64,000 bases of DNA, from the NCBI GenBank assembly GCA_021774795.1, contig JAJFIR010000014.1, positions 186,001-250,000 on the forward strand, read 5' to 3'. Of this stretch, positions 4,062-48,932 are shown piece after piece (position 1 is the stretch's first letter; each line of letters opens with the position of its first letter). The notes under the pieces were generated by a model, which had not been told where the DNA came from, did not search any database, and saw only the letters and a program-made list of their open reading frames with translations. The translations under genes were made by a program, and so were the position numbers. Origin of the DNA: Emcibacteraceae bacterium. GTDB lineage: Bacteria; Pseudomonadota; Alphaproteobacteria; Sphingomonadales; Emcibacteraceae.

Positions 4062-4086
4062 GTAATTTTTCCTATCCGATTGTTAT

Positions 4087-4140
4087 CATTAAAATATAAT
4101 CGAACAGAGATAAAAGAGATAGGGAAATATAACTTATCGA
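4087..4140 (-). promoter_or_regulatory. Upstream region shared by both alkaline phosphatase genes
   Basis: The leader of the first phosphatase gene and the leader of the second (about 5519-5561) share the ordered blocks AAAATATAATC, AACA, GATAG and TTATCG on the + strand. The similarity suggests that the promoter or operator was duplicated together with the gene. I could not fit a convincing Pho box (CTGTCAT repeats), so phosphate control is only inferred from gene function. Confidence 0.4.
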
Positions 4141-4141
4141 A

Positions 4142-5485: not shown

Positions 5486-5571
5486 GAAAATAATTCCTCT
5501 ATTTTGTCCCCGGATAAGAAAATATAATCTAACAACAACAATAGCGATAGTAATTTATCGCTGGAAACAAT

Positions 5572-5604
5572 AAAACCCCACAGCCAAACGGCATATGAGG
5601 TTTT
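5572..5604 (-). terminator. Terminator downstream of tRNA-Lys
   Basis: Read on the minus strand, AAAACCTCATATGCC pairs with GGCTGTGGGGTTTT around a GTTT loop. The stem has about 14 pairs with one bulged T and some G-U pairs, and closes with A-T pairs that give a short U run. It lies 3 bp beyond the CCA end of the tRNA. Confidence 0.65.
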
Positions 5605-5606
5605 TA

Positions 5607-5682
5607 TGGTGAGCCCGACAGGGTTCGAACCTGTGACCTACTGATTAAAAGTCAGTTGCTCTACCAGCTGAGCTACGGGCCC
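5607..5682 (-). tRNA. tRNA-Lys (anticodon TTT)
   Basis: 76 nt including an encoded CCA. The acceptor stem is GGGCCCG with CGGGCTC, with discriminator A. The anticodon arm is ACTGA-CTTTTAA-TCAGT, so the anticodon is UUU. The T arm carries GGTTCGAACC and the D arm GCTCAGCTGGTAGAGC. All four stems fold. Confidence 0.98.
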
Positions 5683-6902: not shown

Positions 6903-7939
6903 AGCTGGTCTTCACGAAACAAAAGACTGCTATCCCCGTATGAATAGAAACGGTACTTACTTTCAATTGCGTGTTTATACGCCTTTTTCATATTATCAAA
7001 TCCTGCAAAGGCACTTACTAACATAAATAATGTCGATTTTGGTAAATGAAAATTAGTCATTAATATATCTATACTGCGAAATTTATATCCCGGTGTAATA
7101 AATATATCCGTCGCATCGCGGTACGCATGTGTCACACCATTATTATCTGTTGCGCTTTCAAGCAGCCTAAGAGAAGTAGTTCCCACCGCAACAATTTTGC
7201 CGCCCTTCGCGCGGGTTTCATTAATTAAATTGGCCACATCTTCGGATACTTCCCCATACTCCGCATGCATTTTATGATCTTCGGTGTCGTCTGCCTTTAC
7301 CGGAAGGAAAGTCCCCGCACCCACATGTAGTGTCACATAAACACCTTTTACACCCTTTTTATCGAGTTGTGATTGTAACGCTTTAGTAAAATGAAGCCCC
7401 GCAGTTGGCGCGGCAACGGCGCCATCATTTTGACTGTATATTGTCTGATAATCATTTTTATCACGGTCATCTATCGGCCTTTGCGACGCGATATAAGGTG
7501 GTAGCGGCATCACACCGGATATATTTAAGGCTTCGCGCAGGTCATCGCCAATTTTATTAAACTCTATTGTTACTTCACCGCCGTCGCCTTTTGACACTAG
7601 GCTCGCGTCGAGCGACCCTTCAAAATTAATTATATCATCTGATTTTAGCTTCTTGGCGGGTTTTGCAAACGCTTTCCAGACACCTCCCCCCATATTCATA
7701 TGGAGTGTGATTTCAATTTTTGCATCGCGTCTTTTACCTTTTAACCTTGCCGGAATGACACGAGTATCATTAAAGATCATCAAATCACCAGCACTGAGAA
7801 AGTCTGATAAGTTGGTGACCATTCGGTCGGTTTGGTCTTTACCTTTAACCACAAGCAAACGCGCCCCGTCACGTGATGCGGCGGGGCGTATTGCGATGAG
7901 TTCTTTTGGTAGCTCAAAATTAAATTGATCGACTTTCAT
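6899..7939 (-). CDS. queA: S-adenosylmethionine:tRNA ribosyltransferase-isomerase
   Basis: 346 residues, the usual length for QueA. It transfers and isomerises the ribosyl group of SAM onto preQ1-modified tRNA to give epoxyqueuosine. Family signatures seen are [49 protein letters not shown] and [19 protein letters not shown]. It lies between the cyclophilin genes (11 bp) and tgt (4 bp overlap), consistent with a single reverse-strand transcript starting at gyrA or coaD. Confidence 0.97.
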
Positions 7940-8446: not shown

Positions 8447-8998
8447 CTAATTTTCAACGTCTGCGGCAACGCGCATCGTTACAATTTTATCTGGATCGGT
8501 GAAACCTTCACCTTCACCTCTTTTAATTTGATCAACGAATTTCATTCCTTTAATCACCTCGCCCCATAAGGTATAATTTCCGTCAAGGTTAGGCCGGTAA
8601 GCAAAAGTTATAAAAAACTGGCTGTCCGCACTATTCGGGTCACTGGCACGCGCCATTGAAACCATGCCTTTATAATGAGGAAGGTCGGAAAATTCCGCAT
8701 CAATGTTTTGACCAGAACCGCCGCCCCCGGTTCCCGTTGGGTCACCCGTCTGGGCCATAAATCCGTCTATTACCCTGTGAAATAGAATCCCGTCATAAAA
8801 CTTTTGCCGGGTTAACTCCTTTATTCTTGCCACATGGTTTGGGGCGACGTCAGGAAACATGCGTATGACAACACGCCCCGTTTCCAGTTCGAGATATAGA
8901 GTATTCTCCAAATCAACTTCTTCATCCTGCGCCAACAATGCTTGTGGCGATACAATCATAATTAAAAGGGCTATAAACGCCTTAAAAGTTATTTTCAT
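8447..8998 (-). CDS. Peptidyl-prolyl cis-trans isomerase, cyclophilin type (exported)
   Basis: 183 residues. Residues 1-23 form a signal peptide (KAFIALLIMIVSPQALLAQ, cleavage likely after LAQ), so the enzyme should fold proteins in the periplasm. Cyclophilin motifs are FHRVIDGFMAQTGD, MARASDPNSADSQFFI and YTLWGEV. It follows coaD by 22 bp and precedes its leaderless paralogue by 19 bp, in the order common in alphaproteobacteria (coaD, PPIase, PPIase, queA, tgt). Confidence 0.94.
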   Translation of the reverse strand: MKITFKAFIALLIMIVSPQALLAQDEEVDLENTLYLELETGRVVIRMFPDVAPNHVARIKELTRQKFYDGILFHRVIDGFMAQTGDPTGTGGGGSGQNIDAEFSDLPHYKGMVSMARASDPNSADSQFFITFAYRPNLDGNYTLWGEVIKGMKFVDQIKRGEGEGFTDPDKIVTMRVAADVEN

Positions 8999-26634: not shown

Positions 26635-29049
26635 ATGAATAATATCAATCAACAACTAAGTATCTTGCTTCTTAAACACCTGATTGCTGCATTATTGATA
26701 GTAACGACAATTGGAACTGTTGCGGCACAAAGTAATTCAGAAGAAATACTTTTAACAGAAGAAGAGCAGGTCTGGATTGCTGAGCATCCTGTCATTACAG
26801 CTACAAGCAATACTGCCCTCGCACCATTTGATTTTATGAGCGCTGGTCAACCTGCCGGACTTTCTATTGATTATTTAAACCTTATAGGAGCCAAGGTTGG
26901 TATCGTAATCGATTATGTAAATTTTGGCACCTGGTCAAATGCATTAGAAAAGGCAATGAATAAAGAAATAGACCTCATGCACACTATTTCAAAAAACGAA
27001 GAAAGAGCAAAATATTTAAATTTCTCAGCCCCTTATTTTAATGTTCCAATTGTCAACTTTGGGCGCACTGGCTCACAAAGAATTTATAGTATTGGCGATC
27101 TTGCGGACAAAAGAATTGGCATCATTAAAGATCATATAATAGGGGAAGCTTATAAGAAAGATTATTCTTATTTTAATCTCATTGAATTTAATACTCACAC
27201 AGAAGCAATAACAGCATTATCTCAAAACAATATTGACGTTTACACAGGGGATAAGGCATCTATTGAATTTTTTATAAGGCAAAATAATATCCAGAGGATA
27301 GATATCATTGGCAATGATTTTGTCTTGGAAAACAACATAATGGATCAACGCATTAGCGTCCATAAAGATAATCCGATTTTAATGGCAATTATTAATAAAG
27401 GTATTGCCGCAGTATCCAGTGAAGAACTTAATGCAATTACTGAAAAATGGATAAAATCGGATCAAACCACTCAAGGTTTAAGACTTACTTTGGAAGAGTT
27501 GGATTGGTTAGCCGACAATAAGATTATAAAAGTATCTGCCGATAAAGATTCATTTCCTTTAGAGTTCATAAACGAAGAAGGGGAAATTAGCGGTATTTCA
27601 GGTGATTTCTTAAATGAAATATCTAAACGGTTAAGTGTTAAATTTGTCTGGGCAGGTAATCAAAGCTGGCATGATGGACTTTTGAAAATTCAATCTCGCG
27701 ATGGTGATATTGATATGGTGTCAGGGGTAACGCCAACGAAAGAAAGACAAACTTTTCTTGAGTTTTCAGATGTATACTTGAATGCGGAATTTGTGATAGT
27801 TTCTCGTATTGAAGGTGCTGTTTATCCGAATATAAATGCTCTTGATGGCAGGACTCTTGCGCAAGTACATGGAACTGCAGTAGTTAGTTACCTCCGTGAA
27901 AATTATCCTAACATTAAAATTATCGAAACAGACACCCGTAGAGAAACTCTTGAACTTGTTTCTTCAGGGAGTGCCGATGCAATGGTTGCAGACGTTACAA
28001 GGGCACTATCGAATATTTCTAATTATGGATTTGAAAATTTAAGCATTGTTGGAACTACTCCATATTTGGAGTCCACTGCAATGGGGGTTTCAGACCAACT
28101 ACCACTTCTGAGCAGTGCAATTCAAAAGGCTATAACTGATATTAATCCAGCAACTAGAAGTGCAATATTAACTAGATGGTTTACACAACGGATTGAATCC
28201 AAGGTTGATTATGGTCCTCTCTATTATGTAATTGGTTTAGCTGCCATCATTATAATTTTATCATTTATATGGGTTGCAAAACTTCGTCAAGAAATCTTAA
28301 AGCGTGTTCAAGCTGAAACTAAGGCTAACATAGCAAGCCAGGCAAAAAATGATTTTCTTGCTTCTATGAGCCATGATTTGAGAACTCCGTTGAATGCTAT
28401 CATTGGGTTCTCAGAAACCATTTCAAATGAAATATTCGGACCTATAAATAATAAGAAATATGCTGATTATATTGATGATATCCATTCATCAGGTAAATAC
28501 CTACTCCATCTCGTTAATGACATTCTTGATTTATCAGTTCTTGAGGCAGAAGGAAGAAAATTGGATTATGAGGTTTTTGACGGCGAACAGCTCATTTTTG
28601 AATGTAAAAATATTGTCTTTAAATTAGCTGAAGATAAAAATATTGATATTGTTATAAATAATTCAGAAAAGTTACCTAACGTTTATGCAGAAAGAACCGC
28701 TTTAAAGCAGATATTAATGAACTTAATTTCAAACGCTATTAAGTTTACGCCACCCAACGGGAATATAACTATCAGTTCTAATGTCTCCAATGATAATTAT
28801 ATTTTCCAAATTTCAGATACCGGGTGCGGCATATCGGAAGAAAACATTAAGATAATTGTTAAACCCTTTATGAGGGCTAAACATTCTCCGTACATTAGCC
28901 ATGAAGATGGGGCGGGATTAGGTCTCTCTATTGTAAATTCTTTAGTTGATGCTCATAGAGGTGAATTGAGGATCGAGAGTATAATAGAGGAAGGAACAAT
29001 AGTTACGGTTTCCTTGCCGCTGCAGAATGCTTTTAATAAAGTTAATTAA
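26635..29049 (+). CDS. Sensor histidine kinase with two periplasmic SBP_bac_3 domains
   Basis: 804 residues. It has an N-terminal signal/anchor helix (about 11-31), two tandem solute-binding type 3 domains (about 40-275 and 280-520), a transmembrane helix near 528-548, a HisKA domain with SMSHDLRTPLNAIIGFSE (phospho-acceptor His580) and a HATPase domain with NLISNAIKFTPP, ISDTGCGISEENI and GAGLGLSIVNSL. The layout is that of BvgS/EvgS-type sensors without receiver or HPt modules. No response regulator gene is adjacent, so its partner is elsewhere. The gene is strongly AT-rich and bracketed by direct repeats of the MmgE/PrpD gene end; it may sense the ligand of the neighbouring transporter. 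Confidence 0.92.
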   Translation: MNNINQQLSILLLKHLIAALLIVTTIGTVAAQSNSEEILLTEEEQVWIAEHPVITATSNTALAPFDFMSAGQPAGLSIDYLNLIGAKVGIVIDYVNFGTWSNALEKAMNKEIDLMHTISKNEERAKYLNFSAPYFNVPIVNFGRTGSQRIYSIGDLADKRIGIIKDHIIGEAYKKDYSYFNLIEFNTHTEAITALSQNNIDVYTGDKASIEFFIRQNNIQRIDIIGNDFVLENNIMDQRISVHKDNPILMAIINKGIAAVSSEELNAITEKWIKSDQTTQGLRLTLEELDWLADNKIIKVSADKDSFPLEFINEEGEISGISGDFLNEISKRLSVKFVWAGNQSWHDGLLKIQSRDGDIDMVSGVTPTKERQTFLEFSDVYLNAEFVIVSRIEGAVYPNINALDGRTLAQVHGTAVVSYLRENYPNIKIIETDTRRETLELVSSGSADAMVADVTRALSNISNYGFENLSIVGTTPYLESTAMGVSDQLPLLSSAIQKAITDINPATRSAILTRWFTQRIESKVDYGPLYYVIGLAAIIIILSFIWVAKLRQEILKRVQAETKANIASQAKNDFLASMSHDLRTPLNAIIGFSETISNEIFGPINNKKYADYIDDIHSSGKYLLHLVNDILDLSVLEAEGRKLDYEVFDGEQLIFECKNIVFKLAEDKNIDIVINNSEKLPNVYAERTALKQILMNLISNAIKFTPPNGNITISSNVSNDNYIFQISDTGCGISEENIKIIVKPFMRAKHSPYISHEDGAGLGLSIVNSLVDAHRGELRIESIIEEGTIVTVSLPLQNAFNKVN

Positions 29050-33553: not shown

Positions 33554-35071
33554 TCAATAATCTGAACCAGAAGGTTTCGCGGCACCGGAGTTAATAAATT
33601 CTGTAGCAGAGACAGACACACCATTAACAATGATTTGTTCGTCTGCTTCCTCCCAGCTTGTAAGTTCTTCATCACTTGCAGTCGGCATAAACCACCCTGT
33701 CATACCCCAGAAAATATCGATCAACGGTGCAATCCAGTTGGCAAAAGCAAATGGCGCATACGAAAGCGTAGGAATACCCAGTGTACCACTAACAAAAACA
33801 GCTCCGGAATTCCAGGGAATTAAAGGTGCAGTCATTGTGGCACCATCTTCCAGTAACCGGGATACGTTCGCTGATGACAGCTTCATACCTCTAAATACCG
33901 GCGTAAACATCCTCCCCGGTATTGTATAGGCCACAAACGCGTTACTGGTCAGGTTAAAGCCAAATGTCGCCAACAACGTAGCTAAAACAAGTTTACTACG
34001 GCTGTTAAGCTTTTTTATCAACGGATCAAGAATAGTGCTTAAGGCACCCGTTTGTTCGAGAACTCCACCAAAAGCCAGTGCAATCATAACCAGTGATATG
34101 ACCCACATCATAGACATGATACCGCCTTTACTTAATAGCTGATCAATTTGCGTAACACCGGTTTGACTGTCATAACCCAACATTAGCACGTTCAGGACAT
34201 CCGCTAGTGTTGCGCCCTGAACAGCAATTGCAACAATTCCTGCTGTAACGACGCCCATAAAAATACCGGGGAGCGGCGCGATTTTCCTTATTATGGTAAT
34301 TAATATGACTAATGGCGGTGCTAAAAGCCACCCATTGAAAATAAAAGTCTGGTCCAGGGTATCCGATAATAATTCAACGCCCCCGGATTCTGCAATATCA
34401 CTTGTATATTCTTTGCCAATTAAAAAATATATGATAAGCGCAACCAATATTGACGGAATTGTCGTTGGCAGCATGTTGCGGATATGGGCATATAAATTGG
34501 TTCCTACAATGCCGGCTGCAAAATTCGTTGTGTCAGACAGCGGTGACATTTTATCACCAAACCACGCGCCTGAAACGATTGCGCCAGCACACAAATATGC
34601 AGGAATTCCCATGCTTTCACCGATCCCTAACAGGGCTAAACCAAGTGTACCTATGGTTCCCCAGGAAGTTCCCGTTGCCACTGAAATGATGGCACAAACG
34701 ATACATGTCATAGGCAAAAAAGTGCTTGGTTCAAGAATACTCAATCCGGTTTTAGTGAATAATGGGACGGTACCGCTCAAAATCCAGGATCCAATCGTCA
34801 TCCCGACCGCCATAAAAATACATATTACCGGTATAGAACGGGTAATAGAAACTGATATGCCTTTTTGAATATCTTGCCATTCATTACCCTGAATAATACC
34901 AAATAATGAAGCAATCGCCACACCCAATATCAGCGGTATATGAGGTGCTCCACCTACAATTAAAATCTGATAACTTAATAATCCTAATGTTAACAGGAGT
35001 GGGGCGATTGCAAGGATATATTTTATTGCGCCTGACCGGTTAATGACCTTACGCATTGTATCTTTGTACAT
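33554..35071 (-). CDS. NhaC-family Na+/H+ antiporter (first copy)
   Basis: 505 residues from ATG 35071. A longer frame to 35254 would add 61 residues of non-membrane, AT-rich sequence overlapping the divergent gene, which I reject. There are about 12 transmembrane helices. ATGTSWGTIGTLGLALLGIG, GAWFGDKMSPLSDTTNFAA and TAPLIPWNSGAVFVSGTLG are NhaC/YheL-type motifs. It should exchange sodium for protons, or may carry an organic ion, as some members are thought to exchange substrates. It heads the three-gene catabolic-looking set. Confidence 0.88.
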   Translation of the reverse strand: MYKDTMRKVINRSGAIKYILAIAPLLLTLGLLSYQILIVGGAPHIPLILGVAIASLFGIIQGNEWQDIQKGISVSITRSIPVICIFMAVGMTIGSWILSGTVPLFTKTGLSILEPSTFLPMTCIVCAIISVATGTSWGTIGTLGLALLGIGESMGIPAYLCAGAIVSGAWFGDKMSPLSDTTNFAAGIVGTNLYAHIRNMLPTTIPSILVALIIYFLIGKEYTSDIAESGGVELLSDTLDQTFIFNGWLLAPPLVILITIIRKIAPLPGIFMGVVTAGIVAIAVQGATLADVLNVLMLGYDSQTGVTQIDQLLSKGGIMSMMWVISLVMIALAFGGVLEQTGALSTILDPLIKKLNSRSKLVLATLLATFGFNLTSNAFVAYTIPGRMFTPVFRGMKLSSANVSRLLEDGATMTAPLIPWNSGAVFVSGTLGIPTLSYAPFAFANWIAPLIDIFWGMTGWFMPTASDEELTSWEEADEQIIVNGVSVSATEFINSGAAKPSGSDY

Positions 35072-35234
35072 TTTTCTTATGATATCCTTTAACAAGGGGT
35101 CTAGTTGAGCTAATAATTTAAGTAAATAACATATCGTCGAAAGATTGACGACATTATAGCTAAAATAAAAATTTTTACTCAATTTTGATTTTGTGCTATA
35201 ACTTTTTTTTATTATTAGATAATAGGAGAGCATC

Positions 35235-36044
35235 ATGAAGTTCCGGTTTCTCACCCTTGCAGGTATTGTAATGACTTGCTTTATTAACTCACCCGTTTTT
35301 TCACAAGATATATATGAAATGCAGAAGAGACAATTAGAGCAAGAAAAACAGAGACAACGTGAATTTGAAGAACAACAAAGGCAAACAAATCAACAAATAC
35401 AAAATATTTTAAACCAGAGAGGAAGAAGCCAGAATAGTTTTGGAAATGTAATTCTTGATGCTCAACGTCAAAATCAACAACAACGCAATGATCAACAAAT
35501 CAAAAGATTTGAAGAACAGGAACAGCAAAATGAACGTTTTCGGCAACAACAGGAAGCTCAAAGGGCTAGCGATCGGGAAATTTTGAGAAAAATGATGGAG
35601 GACGCGAACTCCACCAGCCAACCTTCGGTGCAAGCGGACACAGGTGGAAGGTATGTTCCCCCACAACCCACCGACACCTCGCAAGAAGCTGCCGGATATA
35701 CCGAAGAACGGGCAGAAGAGTATTTTGAGAACAACTCACCCGTAACATCAAGCACAAGAACTGACCGTGCAACCGTTAATATTGATGACCTTGATGGCTC
35801 AGATGAAGGAGGTCTCATCATCAATGTGCGTGACGATGATCCTGCCCCGGCCCAACCAGCCGCACCAGCACAAAGATCCTGCGGATGCTATCAACCCTAT
35901 TATATGATGGATTTACTTGGCTTTTGTCGCATCGATTCAAGTTGGAGTCTGGATAATCCCGGCAAATCGCCGCCAGCGGAATTGTACCGTGTTGAAGTTT
36001 GTAGAAATCCGGACAGATCGCCAGCAATGGATGAATTTCACTGA
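35235..36044 (+). CDS. Secreted Gln-rich coiled-coil protein of unknown function
   Basis: 269 residues, with AGGAG-type site AATAGGAGAGC just upstream. Residues 1-23 are a signal peptide ending VFSQ. Residues about 27-118 are a charged, Gln-rich coiled coil (repeats of RQ/QQ/EQ). A low-complexity acidic/Pro-rich linker (120-215) and a small C-terminal module with cysteines (SCGCYQPYYMMDLLGFCRID...VEVCRNP) complete it. No family is recognised. It is 45 bp upstream of two paralogous secreted FecR-domain proteins, so the three are probably one operon; the coiled coil could make it a scaffold or spacer at the cell surface. This role is inference. Confidence 0.75.
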   Translation: MKFRFLTLAGIVMTCFINSPVFSQDIYEMQKRQLEQEKQRQREFEEQQRQTNQQIQNILNQRGRSQNSFGNVILDAQRQNQQQRNDQQIKRFEEQEQQNERFRQQQEAQRASDREILRKMMEDANSTSQPSVQADTGGRYVPPQPTDTSQEAAGYTEERAEEYFENNSPVTSSTRTDRATVNIDDLDGSDEGGLIINVRDDDPAPAQPAAPAQRSCGCYQPYYMMDLLGFCRIDSSWSLDNPGKSPPAELYRVEVCRNPDRSPAMDEFH

Positions 36045-36089
36045 TATTAATCGACGGTGTAAAAGAAGATTAAACAAAAGGGGAAAAGC

Positions 36090-37757
36090 GTGACGTCAAA
36101 AGTTATTAAATTCTTCGCTCTTACAGCCATATTATTATGTACCTCTGAGACCGCTACATTCGGGCAAGCCATTCCCGCCGAAGAATTTCCCCTAAAAAGC
36201 GAGGAAGAACTAAGAGAAATTCTAAGGTCAGCCAAATCATTTTTTGAATTGGAGCAAACATCCAACCTCATTAATAGTATGGATCGTTGTGGACGTTTCG
36301 CCAATGACGCTGCAGAGGCGCTCACAAATATGCGAAGGATCAAAGCTAATTCAGAGGGAAATGTTACGCGAGCGATACAGATTGAATATGAAGAGCAGAG
36401 GGGAAAAAACGAAGTCGCTTTGTTTGATTACAAAAGCTGTTTTACCAGAAACCTTTCAGGTATGCGCGAAATGATGGCGCGAGGCATTACTACCTATGAA
36501 GCTCATAAAGCAGAATTTGACCGACAGGCAACAAATTACACCAACGTCCCCGACATGGCGAGTTATATATTAGCAGTTGAGGCCGCATTGCAAAGACTTG
36601 TTATAGCTGAAACGCAACGTGATTTCGATAACTCCAAGAGGGGCATTGGGAGAAGACCAGACGATACCATTGCAATAGTAAAAAATGTACATCGTGATGT
36701 TCGTGTTTTGCCAGGTGGGCGCGGTAATGATTGGAAACCAGTCGGGGTCAATTATGGGCTGCGACTACGCGACGAAATACGGACCGGGCCGCGTGGTCGG
36801 GTTCGTTTTGTCTTAAATGATCACTATGTAGATAGTAGCGGAAGAGAATCGGGACCAACGATAATAAACATGAATTCTAATACGCATATCAAAATGGAGC
36901 GTTATGCAGTATCATTTAACGATCCCAAAAAGAGCGAAAGTGTACTTGGGCTTGTCAAAGGGGCATTACGTGCGTTCACAAGAAACTTTGGTATTAATCA
37001 TAGTGTAAGAGTTGGTGGAGGTAATGTTACTGGTGGAATTCGCGGCACCGAAGCAAGTTTTGAATATGACCCGAATACCGATGTATTTAACATGCATGTT
37101 GATCATGGTGACGCGTTTATAGAACATAACGGACAGGAAATCTCGGTCGCACCGAAAACATCGCGAACAGTTGCATTCGGCAATTTAAGTCCTGCGCGGC
37201 CGCTTACTGAAGAACAATGGGCGAATATTGTCGCCAACACCGGTGACGGGTATGCGGAAACGGCAGAAACCAGTCGGTTGGCGGCATTAAGCCTATCTGA
37301 AATTGACGCAGAGCCAAGGATTGCGCAGCCCGCAACACCGGTTAATGTAGATGAAGAATTTAGACGGGAAATGGCGAAAATTTATGTAAGGTCATTTCTT
37401 GAAAGTATAAGAGATTACGATGAAAATTTGTATTTAAGTTTAGCAGTCGGACAGATCAGAAATTCATATGACATAAGCACGCAAACTAAAACATTTCGTG
37501 AATTTGTCGATGGCCGAGGAGAACGCCCCCTTAACTGGACCCATCAGTGCGCAGTTTGTTTGAATGACGACAAGAACACGTGTCAGGTTCAAGTCTATGT
37601 TGATGCCGTAGATCCCACGCAAAGCAAAAGTTTGATTTTCTGGTACGAAGAAAGTGACGATAATAGTGTTGGAAGGGCAATATCGAAAGCGGCTCTCGCA
37701 CAAGGTGATGATTTAGTGAGATTTCAATCACTTAATCCCGTTTGTGAAGTAAATTGA
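36090..37757 (+). CDS. Secreted FecR-domain protein, paralogue 1
   Basis: 555 residues, GTG start preceded by AAAGGGGAAAAG. The signal peptide covers residues 1-26 (LTAILLCTSETATFGQ). Residues 28-190 form a helical domain with Cys67 and Cys117. Residues about 198-360 resemble a FecR domain (LRLRDEIRTGPRGRVRFVL, NTHIKM, LVKGALRAFT, GIRGTEASFEYD, VDHGDAFI). Residues about 440-555 are a C-terminal domain with a CAVC pair and further Cys. Unlike classical FecR regulators it has no cytoplasmic or transmembrane part, so it acts outside the cytoplasm. It is the first of two tandem paralogues following the Gln-rich gene. Function unknown. Confidence 0.8.
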   Translation: MTSKVIKFFALTAILLCTSETATFGQAIPAEEFPLKSEEELREILRSAKSFFELEQTSNLINSMDRCGRFANDAAEALTNMRRIKANSEGNVTRAIQIEYEEQRGKNEVALFDYKSCFTRNLSGMREMMARGITTYEAHKAEFDRQATNYTNVPDMASYILAVEAALQRLVIAETQRDFDNSKRGIGRRPDDTIAIVKNVHRDVRVLPGGRGNDWKPVGVNYGLRLRDEIRTGPRGRVRFVLNDHYVDSSGRESGPTIINMNSNTHIKMERYAVSFNDPKKSESVLGLVKGALRAFTRNFGINHSVRVGGGNVTGGIRGTEASFEYDPNTDVFNMHVDHGDAFIEHNGQEISVAPKTSRTVAFGNLSPARPLTEEQWANIVANTGDGYAETAETSRLAALSLSEIDAEPRIAQPATPVNVDEEFRREMAKIYVRSFLESIRDYDENLYLSLAVGQIRNSYDISTQTKTFREFVDGRGERPLNWTHQCAVCLNDDKNTCQVQVYVDAVDPTQSKSLIFWYEESDDNSVGRAISKAALAQGDDLVRFQSLNPVCEVN

Positions 37758-37774
37758 TAAAACAGAGAGGTTCT

Positions 37775-39493
37775 ATGAATAAATTTTATGCATTTATATC
37801 GTTATTGTATTTATGTTCGGTTTTGGGTACATCCTTATCTAGAGCGCAAGCAATTCCTGCTGAAGAATTTCAGAATATGGATCTTGATGAGTTGGAACGG
37901 GAGCTAAAGGCAGCAAAGTATTTTGCAGATTTAAATCGAGCTTCGTTTTTTATAAACGGGAGCGAAAGGTGCGGCACTTTTCTGGATGATGCGTCAGAAT
38001 CCTTACAAAATATGCGGCAGATAAGGGCGGATTCAGCCGGTCAGGTTACGGAAGCAATTCAAAGAGCATATCAGGAAGAGCAGGACAAAAATCAAGTCGC
38101 CTTGTTTGATTATAGATCCTGTTTCACCCGTAACATGGCGGGATACCCGGAATTGACGGAAGTTGGTATCACGACATACGAAACGCATAAGACAGCATTT
38201 GATAGAACTAAAGATAACTATTCAAATGTACCAGATATTTACAACTATATTGCCGCCCTCGAAAACGCCATTGAGAATTATACTGAAACTGATGAAGGCG
38301 ATTTTATCGGTGAGCTAGCTAATGTTCATAACACTGTAGACGTTTTGCAGGGCGGAAGAGGAAGCGAGTGGAAAACGGTATCAAGAGGATATAAATTACG
38401 TGTTAAAGACGAGCTAAGAACCGGACCAAGAGGACGCACCCGCATCCTTTTTGCCGATCGTTATAACGCTGGGAATGCTGGACCTACTGTTATTAATATT
38501 GGTAGCGGATCGCAAATTCGGATCGAAGATTTCACTGTAAATTTAACCGCTCAAGCAAACCGTCGGGGTATAATTAGTTTAATCAGAGGAAAAATGCGCG
38601 CCTTTACAAGAGGATGGGGATTTGGCAGCAGTTTTCAGGTGCGAACAGGAGCATCTATTGCAAGCTCAGGCGGTACAGCAATTAATATTGGTGGCGATAC
38701 GCAAATTGGTACGAATAATGATGACGGGTTGTTAAGACAGATAGGCCACTATTTTCAAAAAATGTTCATGGCTTACGCACAATCAAATACTGGTGTGTAT
38801 GGCACAGAAGTCGCGATTGAATATTTTCCTGACACTGATTTATTAAATGTCCATTTAAATCGCGGCAATGCTGTAATATTATTTGATGGGGAGCAAATAC
38901 CGATGGAACCGAACACGGGAAGAACGGTGGCATTTGGTAATATCAGTCCGGTTCGAACCGTGAGGGAAGATGTATGGAATTCATTCGTGCGTGAAACAGG
39001 CGACGGATATGTTGAAACAGCTCAGACTTTAGGTATAGAAAACGCAGAACCAATTGAAAGCCTGATTAAACCAAATGAGAGTTATACCAATGACAGGTAT
39101 AATGCCGAATTCCATGTTTGGCGCTTACTTGAAAGTATGTCCACATATGATCGGGGTACTTTTTCCCGCTTGGCATCGGGACAATTAAGAAATTCATACG
39201 ACGAAAGCATGAAAACCAAAACATTTCGTGAATTTATTGATTTTGATGGCCAGCGCCCCAAGACCTGGACACCGAAATGTAGCGTTTGCTGGATAGATGC
39301 AGATGGTACAAAAGTATGTCAGGTGCAAATTTTCGTTGAAGCAGATAATCCGGATCAAAATAAAGACCTTTTATTCTGGTTATACAATATTGATGCCGGT
39401 GATTTGGCGGTTACGATCAATCGGGCAAGCCTAGCAGAAGGCGTGGAATTAAGCTCATTCAATTCACATAACCCAGTTTGTTTTGCACAATAA
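37775..39493 (+). CDS. Secreted FecR-domain protein, paralogue 2
   Basis: 572 residues from ATG 37775, chosen over TTG 37754 because AGAGAGG lies just upstream and a signal peptide follows (FISLLYLCSVLGTSLSRAQ). It is collinear with paralogue 1 from AIPAEEF through VALFDYRSCFTRN, the FecR domain (LRVKDELRTGPRGRTRILF; LIRGKMRAFTRG; GVYGTEVAIEYFPDTDLLNV) and the C-terminal Cys domain. It has an extra ~40-residue segment inside the FecR domain (SSGGTAINIGGDTQIG, then LLRQIGHYFQKMFMAYA), probably an inserted amphipathic helix. The gap to paralogue 1 is 17 bp, so they are cotranscribed. Function unknown. Confidence 0.8.
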   Translation: MNKFYAFISLLYLCSVLGTSLSRAQAIPAEEFQNMDLDELERELKAAKYFADLNRASFFINGSERCGTFLDDASESLQNMRQIRADSAGQVTEAIQRAYQEEQDKNQVALFDYRSCFTRNMAGYPELTEVGITTYETHKTAFDRTKDNYSNVPDIYNYIAALENAIENYTETDEGDFIGELANVHNTVDVLQGGRGSEWKTVSRGYKLRVKDELRTGPRGRTRILFADRYNAGNAGPTVINIGSGSQIRIEDFTVNLTAQANRRGIISLIRGKMRAFTRGWGFGSSFQVRTGASIASSGGTAINIGGDTQIGTNNDDGLLRQIGHYFQKMFMAYAQSNTGVYGTEVAIEYFPDTDLLNVHLNRGNAVILFDGEQIPMEPNTGRTVAFGNISPVRTVREDVWNSFVRETGDGYVETAQTLGIENAEPIESLIKPNESYTNDRYNAEFHVWRLLESMSTYDRGTFSRLASGQLRNSYDESMKTKTFREFIDFDGQRPKTWTPKCSVCWIDADGTKVCQVQIFVEADNPDQNKDLLFWLYNIDAGDLAVTINRASLAEGVELSSFNSHNPVCFAQ

Positions 39494-39528
39494 TGTGAAT
39501 ATCATCACTTTGCTTACACACGAAATTA

Positions 39529-39960
39529 TTATGAGGTTGGAACGCAAAAGAATTCTCCAGTCATTCTGGCGTAAACCGAGCCTTTACGGTCCTGATGATC
39601 GATTTTAAAATTAGATATACCACCTGTCCCCTTTTTATTGGCTCGTTTTCCATATTCCATGCCCTTTTCCCGGCAAGCTTTTATAATTCCTCTTTTAGCA
39701 AACATTGCCGTATCTTCAACAATGTCTAACATGTCGGCCTGATAGTTATAGGCCCATTTTTCCTCAAAAGTGCATTTCAATGCATCCTGATTCTGTTCAG
39801 GATTTGGGCTTATACCTATTGTGGCTTTTTTGCAAGATATTGTGGTTCCTGGAGTGAAGAGGACGGTGCCTGAACCGCCAACATCTTGTGACCAAACTGG
39901 TAAAGAATGATTTCCAAGTATTATAGCTGTCAACACTAGTTTAAAATAATACCTCTTCAT
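39529..39960 (-). CDS. Small secreted Cys-containing protein of unknown function
   Basis: 143 residues from ATG 39960, with AAGGA 7 nt upstream. The ATG directly before it would add one Met, and longer frames add unlikely sequence. The signal peptide is FKLVLTAIILGNHSLPVWSQ. The mature protein has four Cys (SCKKATIG, LKCTFEEKW, KACREKG, FFCVPTS), which could form two disulfides. No family is recognised. It converges on the FecR paralogues (35 bp between stops) and shares their style of secreted, Cys-bearing product, so it may belong to the same function. Confidence 0.65.
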   Translation of the reverse strand: MKRYYFKLVLTAIILGNHSLPVWSQDVGGSGTVLFTPGTTISCKKATIGISPNPEQNQDALKCTFEEKWAYNYQADMLDIVEDTAMFAKRGIIKACREKGMEYGKRANKKGTGGISNFKIDHQDRKGSVYARMTGEFFCVPTS

Positions 39961-40391
39961 CATAAAATCCTTACCTGCTAAATTATCTAAAATGATCATT
40001 GCCGACATAATATGTTACAAAAAATAAACTAATACAAACACTCCTCTTGTCACTTCTTAAGCGTCGACCATCGTTCTATAATTAGATTTGTTTGTCTTTT
40101 CTACTTCCGGGGCCAATTCATTATTTCAATTTTTGTCCATTCCTACATCACCTTCTTCTGCTCTGATATATATTTTATTCGCGTTCTATAACTCATATCA
40201 ATCACTCTATTTCTATATTAGAGTAAAGTGTTGTATTGACCGGTTAAGATCACCGCCCAAAGCAGACACTCAATAAGTGTTTCATTTATAACATTTGAAT
40301 TACTAAATTCTCAGCTATGGAATGTTAAGGCCAACTTTTTTGTGAAAATTGACTTTAAAATTATATAATTGATTCTATCAGCGTAGATTAT
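39961..40391 (+). other. 431-bp intergenic region with repeat copy C
   Basis: AT-rich and without a convincing gene; a short forward frame at 40088-40276 has no ribosome-binding site and runs into the repeat. The repeat copy lies at 40222-40278. The start of the small secreted gene and its promoter must lie at the left end. Confidence 0.6.
40222..40278 (+). repeat. Intergenic repeat, copy C (most complete)
   Basis: GTAAAGTGTTGTATTGACCG, GTTAAGATCACCGCCCAAAG and CAGACACTCAATAAGTG in sequence give the fullest version of the repeat family. It matches copy A (26410-26463) and, in its right half, copy D (45099-45146). Confidence 0.75.
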
Positions 40392-41906: not shown

Positions 41907-42007
41907 AAAACAATATCATATCACCGAATTTGGTAAAAGTTAAAGTCTCAAAACCCTTGGGAGACATATCTCTTGTCGGATCGTCTGGATGTGTGTAGCT
42001 TAGCCTG

Positions 42008-42976
42008 ATGGACGTTCTGACAAATATACTGAAAACGGTAATCCCATCGGGCGGCGGATTCGGTCGCAGAAACCCTCCTGCTCAGTGGGGAGTGACGGTA
42101 CCGAAAGGTGATCTAGCGATCGTTCACATTGTGGTTCGTGGGCAGTGTTGGCTGTCGTTGGCTGATGAAGAAAAGCCGTTAAATTTGAGCGCGGGACATG
42201 TTGCCTTGTTGGCGCATGGGGACGCTCACGCCGTGGGCAGCTCCCCTGACTCGATATCAGACGCGCCCCTGCGCGAGCGCAAATGTTCGCTTGCGAATGT
42301 CGGCGCGGTCGGCACCTCCGGTACAACGATGGCTTGCGGCTTTTTCAGCCTACATGATCGTGAGCGGCATCCGCTTTTATCAGCGTTGCCGCCTTTGGTG
42401 TACCTCAATAAGAGTGACGCCGGTCAATGGCTCAGTACGACAATACGGATGATTGCCAAAAATTCTGGCGGCCCGGGCGGCGATGCTCTGCTTGATCAGC
42501 TTGCCGGCCTTCTCTTCATCCAAACGGTTCGAGCTTACATCGAGTCTGGCGAGTTGTCAGGGCCAGGTTGGCTAGCTGCGCTGCATGATCCAGCGATTTG
42601 CCCTGTCTTAAAACATATTCACGAACGTCCCGCAGCGAACTTGACGGTCGGATCACTTGCCGTGCATGCCGCCATGTCACGGACGGCATTTGCAGAGCGT
42701 TTTAAAGCTGTCATGGGCGAAGCACCGATGACCTATGTGAGGCGGTGGCGTATGCACCATGCAGCGCATCTATTGCGAACAGAAGGACTGTCGGTCCTAG
42801 ATATCTGTGAGCGCGTCGGCTATCTCTCCGAAGCGACCTTCGCCAAAGCGTTCAAACGCGCTTTGGGCTTGCCCCCGGCCGCATATCGCCGGAATGCGAT
42901 ACGCGCATCATTTGATCCGGAGAAGGCGCGCGCTGGCCTGTTGGGGTCTGTTATCCCCGTGAGTTCCACCTCGTAG
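42008..42976 (+). CDS. AraC-family transcriptional regulator (cupin N-terminal domain)
   Basis: 322 residues. Residues about 10-190 are a cupin-type ligand domain (VHIVVRGQCWLSLADEEKPL, SAGHVALLAHGDAHAVG). Residues about 205-305 are the double helix-turn-helix of the AraC family (LAVHAAMSRTAFAERFKAVM, GEAPMTYVRRWRMHHAAHLL, DICERVGYLSEATFAKAFKR). It probably controls the following small membrane proteins. The coding sequence is strikingly GC-richer than its surroundings (37 of 60 bases in 42301-42360 against 23 of 60 in 40441-40500), a sign of acquisition by transfer. Confidence 0.92.
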   Translation: MDVLTNILKTVIPSGGGFGRRNPPAQWGVTVPKGDLAIVHIVVRGQCWLSLADEEKPLNLSAGHVALLAHGDAHAVGSSPDSISDAPLRERKCSLANVGAVGTSGTTMACGFFSLHDRERHPLLSALPPLVYLNKSDAGQWLSTTIRMIAKNSGGPGGDALLDQLAGLLFIQTVRAYIESGELSGPGWLAALHDPAICPVLKHIHERPAANLTVGSLAVHAAMSRTAFAERFKAVMGEAPMTYVRRWRMHHAAHLLRTEGLSVLDICERVGYLSEATFAKAFKRALGLPPAAYRRNAIRASFDPEKARAGLLGSVIPVSSTS

Positions 42977-43416
42977 AAAAACCCGACTATTTGGTGGCTT
43001 GTACTTTGCCAGACACCCTTTCTGGCGATAGACTAGGTCCGATCTCGGCCTGTTAGCCAATTCCAGCATGACGGACGCGAACAGGTCCGGACGCCAGTTA
43101 TGACCGCTAACGATGATTTTTTCCTAAATAGCAGACTGACACTGAATGATGTGAACAATAGGATGGTTCTTGCGTAGGCCGTTGTAAACCAAAAAAAGCC
43201 GGGTTAGGCCTGCTGTTCACCGAGCCTGAACAAGTTTTTTTGAACCTGTAGGAAAATATCTGCGGTTCACAGATGGTTCCAGATTGTTTTTGGCTTACAA
43301 ATGTTCGGACGATGCGACAAGAAATATGTTTGCCGCGACATGGGCGGATGTGTGACTCACCTCTATTATCCAATTACTAGTCAATGAAACGGGTCCATAA
43401 AGTAAAGAGAATTTGC
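42977..43416 (+). other. 440-bp intergenic region inside the GC-rich island
   Basis: No gene is supported; a reverse-strand frame at 43107-43373 has no ribosome-binding site. The region is less GC-rich than the AraC gene. No clear operator or promoter was identified. Confidence 0.5.
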
Positions 43417-43734
43417 ATGAAAATCGACTTAAACAAAATCGGCGCAGATTTCTACTTCCTCCCGGGAACAGGACACATCGTCACCCTGTTCTCCGCAGTA
43501 CAGCATCGAATACTCGACGGCATAAGTTATTGGATGTGTCTGGTGACCGTCGTAGCCACGGATTGGCCTTTCATTATTTTATTTATTACCTCCGGTTTCC
43601 TGATATTTCCGAATAGTTTCTTCGGCCCGACATCGGCAGTTCTGGCAATTTTTTTTAGCGCATTCGGGCGGCACAATCGCGAAAAGTCGTTACGCGCAGG
43701 AAAGACAGCTCCGCTATCGGAGGGTTCTGTATGA
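43417..43734 (+). CDS. Short membrane protein, likely truncated relative of the next gene
   Basis: 105 residues from ATG 43417. About three transmembrane helices. Its start (MKIDLNKIGADFYFLPGTGH) and end (FGPTSAVLAIFFSAFGRHNR) match the start (MKANAHKIGAVFYAIWGVLH) and end (MAPPIAVLAIVFSMIGYLNR) of the next gene, but about 50 residues from the middle are absent. It overlaps that gene by 4 bp (ATGA). It could be a shortened paralogue or a degenerating duplicate. Confidence 0.6.
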   Translation: MKIDLNKIGADFYFLPGTGHIVTLFSAVQHRILDGISYWMCLVTVVATDWPFIILFITSGFLIFPNSFFGPTSAVLAIFFSAFGRHNREKSLRAGKTAPLSEGSV

Positions 43735-44195
43735 AAGCCAATGCTCACAAAATCGGTGCCGTATTTTACGCGATTTGGGGCGTCCTCCATGTCGTCAGCG
43801 GGTGGATGATGCTTAATACACTTGCATCAGAGGGCGGCACAGCGGCCCTCGGAACGCTAGGCAACGGCGTGCCAGCCGAACAGTTGACCCAGAACGTTCA
43901 AAGCGTTGCCATGAGCGCACTCGGCCTGTTGTTCTGGGATCTCGTATGGTTTGGTGTATTGGTCACGATTCTTGCCGTCACACTGAACTGGAAAAACAGT
44001 GTTGCGGCCTTCTGGATCACCCTCGGCATCGTGCTCGCGACGGACACAGCCTACATGTACGCCATCGTTCTTCCCGGCTACATCGCGTTCCCACGTGGTT
44101 TTATGGCACCGCCAATTGCTGTTCTGGCTATTGTCTTTAGCATGATCGGCTACCTCAACCGTCGCTCGCTCGCCGGGTCCAGCCATACCGCTTAG
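43731..44195 (+). CDS. Small integral membrane protein, four helices
   Basis: 154 residues with four predicted transmembrane helices (about 8-28, 64-88, 92-112, 124-144). I do not assign a family with certainty; the layout resembles DoxX-like or DUF-type inner membrane proteins. Start ATG 43731 overlaps the preceding stop, so translation is coupled to the shorter relative. It is GC-rich like the AraC and MipA genes and is probably part of the same transferred block. Confidence 0.7.
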   Translation: MKANAHKIGAVFYAIWGVLHVVSGWMMLNTLASEGGTAALGTLGNGVPAEQLTQNVQSVAMSALGLLFWDLVWFGVLVTILAVTLNWKNSVAAFWITLGIVLATDTAYMYAIVLPGYIAFPRGFMAPPIAVLAIVFSMIGYLNRRSLAGSSHTA

Positions 44196-44263
44196 CAAAC
44201 CTCGCCCGGGACTCTACGCCCCGATCAAGTCAATCTCTTAGTCGCGTATAGGAGCCTCTAACA

Positions 44264-45091
44264 ATGCAAAAATTCACTACTACAATCAATTTCACTGCTA
44301 CGGTCTTAGTTCTCTCCCTCCTTCTGTCAGGCGTCGTGTCGGCGGAATCTAATGGCGTTAAGGGATTCATCTCTGTCGGCCCGGCGGCCATCCCTGACTA
44401 TGAAGGTTCGCAGGACTACGAGGCGGCTCCGCTCATCTTCGGGCGCATGCAATGGCAGGAGTATTATCTTGAAGTTCAGGGAACGCGTGCGCGGGCGAAT
44501 CTGCTCCCACAAAGATTTTTCTCGTTCAGTGATACGCTATCCATTCAGGCTGGCCCGACGTTGAGTTACCGGCGCGAGCGGGATGACGTGGAGAACGTCC
44601 GCGTTGACAGCTTGCGAGATATCGATGCGACCATTGAGCTGGGTGGCTTTGTCACGCTTCAGATAGTGAATGTGTTTCGGGAACAAGACGCTTTAACGGG
44701 CCGCGTCGAAGTTGTCGGCGACGCCACCAATACGCATGACGGCCATTTGATCACGCTACGCGGTGCTTACGGTATGCCGCTTGGCCGGAGATGGAAACTC
44801 GGCGTGGGCGTTGAATCCACCTATGCTTCCGAAGAATACATGAGCACCTATTTCAACGTCGATGCCAACAATGCGGCCCGAAGTGGACTTGCGGCCTTCG
44901 CCGCTAGCGATGGCTTCAAGGATATAGGGCTCGACCTCTTTCTCCAATACGACGTCACTGAACGATGGGGCGTGCTCACCTTTATGCGTGCCTCACGCCT
45001 TATTGGTGATGCCGCCGACAGTCCAATCGTAGACCGGGAAGGTTCGGAGAATCAATTTTTCGGCGGCGTTGCGGTCAGCTATCGGTTCTGA
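44264..45091 (+). CDS. MipA/OmpV family outer membrane protein
   Basis: 275 residues, with TAGGAGCC 9 nt upstream. Signal peptide 1-27 (LVLSLLLSGVVSAES). The mature protein has the MipA/OmpV features: GPAAIPDYEGSQDYEAAPLI near the start, alternating beta strands, the SYRRERDDVENV strand, YGMPLGRRWKLGVGVESTYA, and a C-terminal aromatic residue in VAVSYRF, typical of outer membrane barrels. Members of this family scaffold peptidoglycan enzymes or act as porin-like proteins. It ends the GC-rich block; repeat copy D starts 8 bp after its stop. Confidence 0.9.
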   Translation: MQKFTTTINFTATVLVLSLLLSGVVSAESNGVKGFISVGPAAIPDYEGSQDYEAAPLIFGRMQWQEYYLEVQGTRARANLLPQRFFSFSDTLSIQAGPTLSYRRERDDVENVRVDSLRDIDATIELGGFVTLQIVNVFREQDALTGRVEVVGDATNTHDGHLITLRGAYGMPLGRRWKLGVGVESTYASEEYMSTYFNVDANNAARSGLAAFAASDGFKDIGLDLFLQYDVTERWGVLTFMRASRLIGDAADSPIVDREGSENQFFGGVAVSYRF

Positions 45092-45098
45092 GGCATCG

Positions 45099-45146
45099 GT
45101 GGTGAAAGGGATCACTTGAAGTCACCACGCAAAGCGGACACTGAAT
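45099..45146 (+). repeat. Intergenic repeat, copy D
   Basis: GGTGGTGAAAGGGATCACTT, GAAGTCACCACGCAAAGC and GGACACTGAATAA match copies A and C, most clearly in AAAGCGGACACT.AATAA. It directly borders the right end of the GC-rich block. Confidence 0.65.
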
Positions 45147-45226
45147 AAATATCATTCTTTCACCCTTTCTCATTTCTTTAAAGACGAGTAAGCTACCTGT
45201 ATTCAACAAAATAGAAGGGAAAATTG

Positions 45227-45727
45227 ATGAAAAAGATATATGCAAGTCTTATTATGATAATTGTAACCATGAACGTAGCCGCACAGGAATTTAATCCGAA
45301 CTTTGTCGCGCCTTCTCATGAAGTGAGGATAAAGGAAGAAGTGAAGCTGATTATCCAGCGATACTATACTTATTTTTCGGCCAATCAGATGAATAAATTT
45401 CCAACGGAAACGCACACAATACCGTGGAAAATACTGGGAACCGACCGCCTTTATTTATCGGCGGACGCATCGAACGAAAATTATTTTAACTCGTTTGCGG
45501 CCATCAAAGAAAATGATCCGGATTATGATCGCTCGGTTTTCACAATTCAGAATATTTGTGTACTATCCCCGCGTGCGGCAATAGTCAGTGGATTTAACAC
45601 AAGAAAACGCGCCGATGACAGCATCATAACCATGATGGGAACAGCCTATATCCTTGAACAAACGGAGGCAGGCTGGCGAATAAACAGCTTTGCCAGTATG
45701 TCACTTGACAAGATTGTAAGCTGTTAA
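45227..45727 (+). CDS. Small secreted protein, NTF2-like (uncertain)
   Basis: 166 residues from ATG 45227, preceded by GAAGGG. Signal peptide 1-19 (SLIMIIVTMNVAAQ). The mature part (VKLIIQRYYTYFSANQMNKF, IPWKILG, AAIVSGFNTRKR, GTAYILEQTEAGWRINSFAS) has the length and pattern of SnoaL/DUF4440-type NTF2-like domains, which is inference. The gene is flanked by repeat copies D and G in opposite orientations. Confidence 0.7.
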   Translation: MKKIYASLIMIIVTMNVAAQEFNPNFVAPSHEVRIKEEVKLIIQRYYTYFSANQMNKFPTETHTIPWKILGTDRLYLSADASNENYFNSFAAIKENDPDYDRSVFTIQNICVLSPRAAIVSGFNTRKRADDSIITMMGTAYILEQTEAGWRINSFASMSLDKIVSC

Positions 45728-45749
45728 AAAAATGGGCTAGCTGGCGGGA

Positions 45750-45789
45750 AGTATTCAATGTACGCTTTCGGCCCAGACTGTGTGAAAAC
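45750..45789 (-). repeat. Intergenic repeat-related element G (inverted)
   Basis: On the minus strand: GTTTTCACACAGTCTGGGCC then GAAAGCGTACATTGAATACT. The second half resembles CAAAGCGGACACTCAATAAG of copy C. The plus-strand 17-mer GGCCCAGACTGTGTGAA (45770-45786) is identical to 29086-29102. Confidence 0.55.
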
Positions 45790-45985
45790 AGCTAGGGGAA
45801 GTTTCGAAAACTTGTTATAAAAAAGCACGTGAGCAGCATCAGTTTACGCCGAATTTGACTATTTTTTTATTTTCCTTAAACTCAGTATCACAATAGAAGA
45901 GGGAAAAATTACTCCTGAGACCTATCAATAATAATCGGTTATCTGGCTCGGGAAAAAGTATCAATCAATTGAAGGGAGACAATTA

Positions 45986-46423
45986 ATGGAAAATTTTATG
46001 AAAAATCATGAAGGGCAGACCTATGCGTTACTTCGCATGGTAACAGGCTTTCTTTTTCTTTTTCATGGATTACGGTGGTGGCTTGGATGGCCGGGCGGCG
46101 GGGAGCCGTTTGTCGGGCCTTGGCATATCGTTTATATCGGCGCACCAATTTTGATATTTGGCGGGCTTTTTGTCTGTGTCGGTATGTTTACGCGCTGGGC
46201 GGCATTTTTATCGTCGGGTCTTATGGCCTGTGCTTATTGGGGATATTACGGAAATAAAGCATTTATGGTGCCGGAAGGCAGCAGTGATTCAGCTATTATG
46301 CTAATGTTTCCATATGTAAATAAAGGTGAGCTGGCAACAATGTTTTGTTTTGCCTTTCTATTCATTGCGTCTCGCGGCAGCGGAATTTGGAGCATTGAAA
46401 GCGCCCGAAAAAATTCCGGATAA
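45986..46423 (+). CDS. DoxX-family membrane protein
   Basis: 145 residues with GGGAG 10 nt upstream. It has four transmembrane helices with the family start LLRMVTGFLFLFHGLRWWLG, the ILIFGGLFVCVGMFTRWAAF second helix and a final FCFAFLFIASRGSGIWSI. DoxX-like proteins are small membrane proteins, some linked to quinone chemistry; no specific role is readable here. It is a stand-alone gene converging on the RidA pair. Confidence 0.85.
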   Translation: MENFMKNHEGQTYALLRMVTGFLFLFHGLRWWLGWPGGGEPFVGPWHIVYIGAPILIFGGLFVCVGMFTRWAAFLSSGLMACAYWGYYGNKAFMVPEGSSDSAIMLMFPYVNKGELATMFCFAFLFIASRGSGIWSIESARKNSG

Positions 46424-48368: not shown

Positions 48369-48932
48369 ATGTCTGTCAAGCCCAAGAAACGTGGAAGACC
48401 GTTTAATTCCAGCAAACAGCTTTCCAACAGCATAATTCTGAAATGCGCTAAATCTATGTTGGAAGAAGAAGGGAAAATACCTGCTATTCGTGGACTTGCC
48501 GCCAAATTGAATGTGGACGCAATGGCAATTTATCACTATTTCGCTAATAAGAACGCTCTGCTCGAAGCCATTGCAAGTTCATTGGTTACAGAAATATATG
48601 AACCCAAAAATGATAGACCCTGGAAAACGGAAATTTATAGCTTGTGCTATAGTTATCTTAAACTATTAAAGGATTATAACGGACTACTTGAAACAATGCT
48701 GTCTTCTACTTGTTTTGGACCATCAAATGTTTTTACTGAAAAGTTTAGCCAAATTACGGATACTTTGGGCCTTTCTCCGGCTACAGCAATAACTGCACGT
48801 GATTTGTTGGTTGATTATCTTCACGGTTTTGCCTTTGCAATGCAATTAAACAAGCGGGACGGCGAAATTGAACTTGAAATGATAAAAGGTCCCATCAATT
48901 TATATTTCGGTGCTCTTGAAAAATATAACTGA
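48369..48932 (+). CDS. TetR-family transcriptional regulator
   Basis: 187 residues. The N-terminal helix-turn-helix (GKIPAIRGLAAKLNVDAMAIYHYFANKNALLEAIA, residues about 38-72) is typical of TetR repressors, and the rest is helical ligand-binding and dimerisation domain. AAGGAG lies 4-9 nt before the ATG. With the palindrome in the divergent region, it probably represses itself and the DHFR-like gene. Its inducer is unknown. Confidence 0.9.
   Translation: MSVKPKKRGRPFNSSKQLSNSIILKCAKSMLEEEGKIPAIRGLAAKLNVDAMAIYHYFANKNALLEAIASSLVTEIYEPKNDRPWKTEIYSLCYSYLKLLKDYNGLLETMLSSTCFGPSNVFTEKFSQITDTLGLSPATAITARDLLVDYLHGFAFAMQLNKRDGEIELEMIKGPINLYFGALEKYN

Follow-up and report, generated by a model that had tools for sequence, protein, structure and literature searches.

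The DNA analysed here (the window, a 64,000-nucleotide stretch of contig JAJFIR010000014.1 from an Emcibacteraceae bacterium, whose draft assembly is called G000 below) carries three same-strand genes that encode one glutamine (Gln)-rich protein and two proteins with a FecR-like domain, all predicted to be exported, and that probably specify an undescribed cell-envelope complex. We tentatively favour, at a probability of roughly 0.45, an exported two-part complex of FecR-domain and Gln-rich protein that provides the envelope with a structural or binding scaffold and is not a transcriptional regulator. An original prediction had placed a possible envelope system here: the conserved unit of three exported proteins was recovered, and the envelope function, like the interaction, localisation and disulfides of the proteins, is what we infer.

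The three genes lie on the forward strand with gaps of 45 bp between genes 1 and 2 and 17 bp between genes 2 and 3, exactly as predicted. Gene 1 (35235 to 36044), recognised by its open reading frame (ORF) and composition, encodes the Gln-rich protein of 269 amino acids (aa); gene 2 (36090 to 37757, GTG start; ORF, Pfam and structural model) encodes FecR-domain protein A (P0002, 555 aa); and gene 3 (37775 to 39493; ORF, Pfam and BLASTP) encodes FecR-domain protein B (P0003, 572 aa), the start of which is most likely the ATG at 37775 rather than the TTG at 37754 of the ORF list. Shine-Dalgarno-like sequences were read by eye for gene 1 (AGGAGA, 35224 to 35229), gene 2 (AGGGGA, 36079 to 36084) and gene 3 (GAGAGG, 37765 to 37770). 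Counts of promoter-like sites (16 versus 12.7 ± 3.8 in shuffles) and terminator-like sites (8 versus 4.8 ± 2.0) came from a scan that was not used as evidence. By Kyte-Doolittle hydropathy, the N-termini of all three proteins and of the product of a fourth, convergent gene were hydrophobic, and no later 19-residue stretch in any of the four exceeded 1.2. Signal peptides without a transmembrane helix are thus predicted, from hydropathy alone, and export of all three proteins of the unit, claimed at the outset, fits their sequences.

Full-length homologues of the FecR-domain proteins were found in two other alphaproteobacterial metagenome-assembled genomes (MAGs), G004 of the same genus and G569 of another order, with between-genome identities of 24 to 29%; G000 itself holds no copy besides A and B, and among 196 relatives only G004 matched besides the window's own genome. 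In all three genomes with a full-length homologue, a gene for a Gln-rich protein with a C-terminal module of four cysteines (Cys) lies directly upstream of the FecR gene on the same strand, with gaps of 45 bp in G000, 2 to 11 bp in G004 (two candidate ATGs) and 90 bp in G569. The counterpart of gene 1 occupies positions 6984 to 7805 of locus L035 in G569 and positions 1 to 600 of L007/L036 in G004, where the contig begins inside the Gln/Asn-rich gene, its N-terminus is lost and everything upstream is off the contig. Visible flanking genes differ among the three genomes. The homologues are thus clustered, and not found each alone as the prediction had considered; a chance arrangement of the three genes is unlikely.

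Profile searches covered overlapping sets of genomes (class, two orders and phylum): 16 of 385 genomes matched in the class, 3 of 27 in the order of G569, 6 of 346 in the window's own order and 42 of 349 in the phylum sample. Full-length matches came from only two genomes of the class (G000 and G569), one of the order of G569 (G569 itself), two of the own order (G000 and G004) and one of the phylum sample (G000); the remaining matches centred on the FecR domain, mostly at model positions 180 to 310, with a few starting from 130 or reaching 402. Hidden Markov models (HMMs) of the N- and C-domains had no match in 41 loci that have only the FecR domain (further matches of the phylum sample had no locus), and only this absence elsewhere is informative, since the HMMs were built from the four proteins that they find. 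A pattern scan of an 84,980-species collection retrieved no relatives but those in the G004 and G569 records, and a scan with protein A alone retrieved none; both scans demand exact matches to a few degenerate peptides and therefore miss distant homologues.

The Gln-rich protein had been described as carrying a Cys-containing C-terminal module, and this was confirmed. Its arm (residues 25 to 130; 35307 to 35624) is 26% Gln, 34% charged and 3% Pro plus Gly, a composition that suggests a coiled coil or disorder, and all four Cys outside the signal peptide (216, 218, 231 and 256) fall within a C-terminal module of 41 residues (35880 to 36002). The module reads CGC-x12-C-x24-C in the window, CC-x10-C-x27-C in the Gln/Asn-rich partner of G004 and CGC-x11-C-x18-C in the G569 partner, which is Gln-rich with a hydrophobic N-terminus. 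We sought the four-Cys pattern in the last 80 residues of frames, the counts including antisense frames as well as those truncated at the end of a locus. Four of 394 distinct frames of at least 150 aa from 63 sources had it, namely, the three partners and one minus-strand frame in locus L022, where the FecR match is on the plus strand. With frames of at least 90 aa, the pattern occurred in 10 of 1053, and only the three partners among these 10 were Gln-rich (first-half Gln of 12 to 23%, versus at most 7% in the other seven). Shuffled C-termini regained the pattern in 118 to 134 of 20,000 trials. No Gln-rich frame with the module was present in the 41 FecR-only loci (flank of at most ~1.5 kb on each side). 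Pfam matches of the window's Gln-rich protein (O-antigen_lig, TFIIA and others) were under cut-off and of low-complexity type.

Proteins A and B were 41% identical over 596 alignment columns (BLASTP, E 3e-152), and the organisation predicted for these paralogues, with a helical N-domain, a FecR-like domain and a Cys-bearing C-domain, reappeared in AlphaFold2 models built on four sequences. In protein A, the helical N-domain (36186 to 36629; Cys67 and Cys117) is followed by a FecR beta domain with the fold of the PupR juxtamembrane subdomain (36699 to 37205; Pfam and model) and an NTF2-like C-domain with the pattern CxxC-x7-C-x53-C (37344 to 37745; model and Cys pattern). Approximate limits in protein B, from alignment to A, are 37868 to 38284 for the helical N-domain (Cys66 and Cys116), 38330 to 38947 for the FecR domain (also a Pfam match, under the cut-off), with an insertion of ~40 residues relative to A, and 39071 to 39481 for the NTF2-like C-domain (Cys 502, 505, 515 and 569). 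The N-domain Cys pair is exactly 50 residues apart in all four homologues, and CxxC with two further Cys recurs in all four C-domains, the third Cys not falling in a single alignment column. Scores against Pfam FecR (PF04773; curated cut-off, 24 bits) were 19.5 bits for A and 21.3 bits for B, both under the cut-off, and 32.1 bits, over it, for the G004 homologue; the G569 homologue had no match at E 1.

The beta domain (model residues 225 to 388) matched residues 111 to 251 of PupR (6ovk_R) with Z 14.5 and a root mean square deviation (rmsd) of 2.9 over 138 aligned residues (Foldseek, E 2.4e-5), and BDI_1681 (4m0n) with Z 14.4. The C-domain (residues 419 to 540), H-H-H-H-E-E-E-E by DSSP of the model, matched many NTF2-like PDB domains (Z about 9 to 11 over about 100 to 110 residues); no Pfam family reached its cut-off there, and the NTF2-like assignment is one of fold only. 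The superfamily includes the CaMKII hub, the N-terminal region of PBP5 and VirB8 (the last in the Foldseek list only), from which the C-domain differs by its four conserved Cys, including CxxC. The N-domain was modelled with a predicted local distance difference test (pLDDT) of 90 and a predicted template modelling score (pTM) of 0.76. It had no Pfam match at E 1, no Foldseek match at E 0.001 or below and a best Z of 7.5 in the PDB structure search (rmsd ~10), under the informative level for helical bundles, and newness of the fold does not follow from these negatives; a PDB sequence search with queries A3 and P0007 gave nothing at E 1. As modelled, known folds appear to cover the parts of the FecR proteins except the helical N-domain, which is unplaced.

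As the prediction had stated, neither a sigma factor nor a TonB receptor was near the unit: neither of these, and no STN domain, was present among the 43 window proteins scanned with Pfam, out of 66 ORFs of at least 120 aa (23 ORFs and unlinked genes lay outside the scan, and no search was aimed at unlinked receptors or sigma factors). The FecR proteins had no STN and no LysM match at E 1, and the NTF2-like model at residues 419 to 540, of moderate confidence, argues against an STN subdomain. CHASE2, a control for which matched in 2 of 14 named genomes, was absent from all three genomes with the unit, and CHASE2 signalling was discarded as a candidate on this ground. Since neither an anti-sigma domain nor a transmembrane helix was found, and neither a linked sigma factor or receptor nor a CHASE2 partner, the FecR proteins are unlikely to signal in the canonical way. 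The architecture has no covering model in Pfam, NCBIfam, PHROGs or PADLOC. No system with this layout appeared among the open-access literature matches listed, nor did a previously described family with an equivalent set of genes come to light. MtxA, considered as a possible FecR relative, was dropped; the available part of PMC4439547 does not contain the term FecR.

The closest described systems share parts of the unit. In PupR, according to the available text of PMC7186176, the juxtamembrane and STN subdomains are both required to bind the PupB signalling domain, and contacts with the receptor signalling domain go via the linker and STN part. Like the PupR/FecR anti-sigma regulators, the unit's proteins have the juxtamembrane fold; unlike them, they lack an anti-sigma domain and a transmembrane helix, have an NTF2-like model in the STN place and an added helical N-domain, and have no linked extracytoplasmic function (ECF) sigma factor or TonB receptor found. 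LysM-FecR proteins (COG4254), as far as PMC5192318 describes them in the text available, have a predicted signal peptide, a FecR domain and no anti-sigma part, and are encoded beside CHASE2 histidine kinases; the unit resembles them in the first three respects and differs in having a Gln-rich partner in place of LysM and CHASE2. In Sinorhizobium meliloti, the accessible portion of PMC5498481 places SMc02177 (FecR domain, predicted non-cytoplasmic) next to the periplasmic SMc02178 and near the cyclase gene cyaD1, reports a cleavable signal peptide for SMc02178 and not for SMc02177, and describes both as required for control of secondary infection. There, too, a FecR protein predicted to be non-cytoplasmic stands beside an exported protein of unknown function, but it is tied to the cyclase/Clr cascade; the pair is set beside the unit by description. 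The prediction had held that FecR domains outside sigma factor and TonB systems are unusual: no such partner was found here, and the LysM-FecR/CHASE2 and SMc02177 cases, from what these sources describe, make the unit less anomalous than claimed.

A scaffold or binding complex is favoured over a regulator on the grounds that the STN place is NTF2-like in the model, that neither the anti-sigma domain nor the membrane helix is present, that no sigma factor or TonB receptor was among the scanned window proteins and that CHASE2 is absent. Duplication of the FecR gene may have expanded a two-part complex to the three genes of the window. The proteins would be exported through Sec, with disulfides forming once they are periplasmic; A and B would pair through the NTF2-like domain or the helical bundle; the beta platform, freed of an STN subdomain, could offer a protein-docking surface; and the Gln-rich protein would dock via its Cys module with the arm extended as a tether or spacer.

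Several observations weigh against this scaffold. The full-length model was middling (pLDDT 65 and pTM 0.36 on four sequences), the Foldseek matches of the C-domain to NTF2-like folds had E 0.04 or worse, and contact among A, B and the Gln-rich protein is putative. The four-Cys pattern is a loose one (in 4 of the 41 FecR-only loci, a frame that is not Gln-rich also has it), and BLAST shows no significant similarity between the Gln-rich proteins of the window and G569. Compared with the arms of G000 and G569, that of G004 is richer in Gln/Asn and less prone to helix, and the signal peptide of the G004 partner, whose N-terminus is beyond the contig end, is unseen. Within each genome, the Gln-rich and FecR partners are similarly charged, which leaves charge attraction or simple electrostatic pairing unsupported. 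The linkage rests on three loci, which are few, and the unit, missing from 11 of the 13 genomes of the genus, is hence not a core envelope function.

A periplasmic sensor, in which the FecR proteins bind a ligand or outer-membrane protein and relay to an unlinked membrane transducer, as may be the case for FecR-domain proteins whose genes adjoin those of CHASE2 proteins, is an alternative that we consider rather unlikely. NTF2-like domains often hold ligand pockets, which counts for a sensor, as do the gene neighbourhoods of the LysM-FecR proteins and SMc02177 as described in the sources above. It is opposed by the missing CHASE2, by the lack of sigma factor, TonB receptor and STN in the scanned proteins, and by the signalling genes of the window (an SBP_bac_3 kinase at 26635 to 29049, a GGDEF-EAL gene at 488 to 2272, an AraC gene at 42008 to 42976 and a TetR gene at 48369 to 48932), none of which adjoins the unit. 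PupR, moreover, needs both subdomains for PupB, whereas the STN of the unit appears missing, and smc02177 and smc02178 were dispensable for plant-signal perception in the portion of PMC5498481 available.

It is doubtful that the genes form a surface fibre or biofilm-matrix system with the Gln-rich protein as subunit and the FecR proteins as periplasmic escorts. The exported, low-complexity Gln-rich arm, Gln/Asn-rich in G004, would suit a fibre, and FapC-type subunits likewise combine export and a Gln/Asn-rich composition with C-terminal Cys. However, the G000 and G569 arms, with 32 to 34% charged and many helix-prone residues, are not prion-like, none of the Pfam matches of the unit proteins was to Fap, and the unit contains no gene for an outer-membrane channel, although no search aimed at a channel was made. 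An autotransporter gene (product 1,082 to 1,094 aa) is convergent with the FecR gene of G004 (L007, 2533 to 5817), with a 49%-identical copy on another contig in G000 (L031, 4955 to 8203); the autotransporter occurs in 7 of the 13 genomes of the genus, and 5 of these 7 have no FecR unit; it was rejected as a partner. We hold equally little confidence in a further reading, an undescribed alphaproteobacterial surface or matrix assembly in which a Cys-rich FecR/NTF2-like escort-scaffold, its PupR docking fold detached from signalling, would assemble a Gln-rich fibre or tether that evolves fast and is anchored through the four-Cys module.

There is likewise only a slim chance that the unit is an envelope trait that varies, spreads horizontally and mediates contact with other bacteria or with a host, for example as a surface lock or decoy. 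In its favour, the distribution is very patchy, with full-length homologues in 2 of the 13 genomes of the genus and 1 of the 27 of the order of G569, and the same-genus copies (24 to 28% identical) are no closer to each other than to the copy of the other order (27 to 29%), which fits horizontal spread or fast divergence. Against it, the FecR protein was unmatched in viral contigs, phages and plasmids (the Gln-rich protein was not searched there), and the GC content of the unit and that at its third codon positions (GC3) resemble most sampled neighbours. The 43 scanned proteins included no integrase, and the only tRNA gene of the window is ~30 kb from the unit. A defence or phage origin was rejected, with no PADLOC match for six proteins and no PHROGs match for eight. 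That the genes are unrelated exported genes, neighbours by chance, as their presence in three genomes only and the likeness of the Gln-rich partners in composition and Cys module only might suggest, is highly improbable given that order, strand and a short gap are kept in all three genomes and that no FecR-only locus holds such a Gln-rich frame.

The fourth, convergent gene (39529 to 39963, minus strand, 144 aa; an ORF), which had been counted with the system, did not belong to it on the evidence obtained: its product, predicted to be exported and with four Cys, is an orphan with no homologue among the 196 relatives outside its own genome, and the unit loci of G004 and G569 gave nothing below E 0.4. 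Its conservation does not go along with that of the others, so that the evidence bears on three genes and not four, and the gene is probably unrelated to the unit. On the other side, a divergent NhaC-type antiporter gene (33554 to 35140) had a best match of 42% identity in the genus outside G000; it therefore does not mark an orthologous (empty) site, and this flank looks species-specific too. Farther off, GC content is 0.48 to 0.53 at 42000 to 46000, versus roughly 0.39 to 0.43 on either side, with 0.57 for both GC and GC3 in the AraC-family gene; this segment was possibly acquired recently. Two tandem alkaline-phosphatase family genes adjoin the tRNA-Lys gene (2721 to 5682), and a second histidine kinase with an SBP_bac_3-like sensor, besides that of the window, is encoded in G000 at 8587 to 11022 of L031 (seen from translation only).

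The unit's FecR proteins are a rare variant of exported FecR-domain proteins, an orphan family in three genomes (one draft assembly and two MAGs), in which the FecR/PupR docking fold is built into an exported, Cys-rich architecture with a consistent partner. For this architecture, the textbook mode of the iron-citrate pathway is unlikely. The unit is moderately interesting until its function is measured; should the proposed binding of the pair hold, it would go some way towards explaining the role of non-regulatory FecR-domain proteins and would provide a tractable pair for tests.

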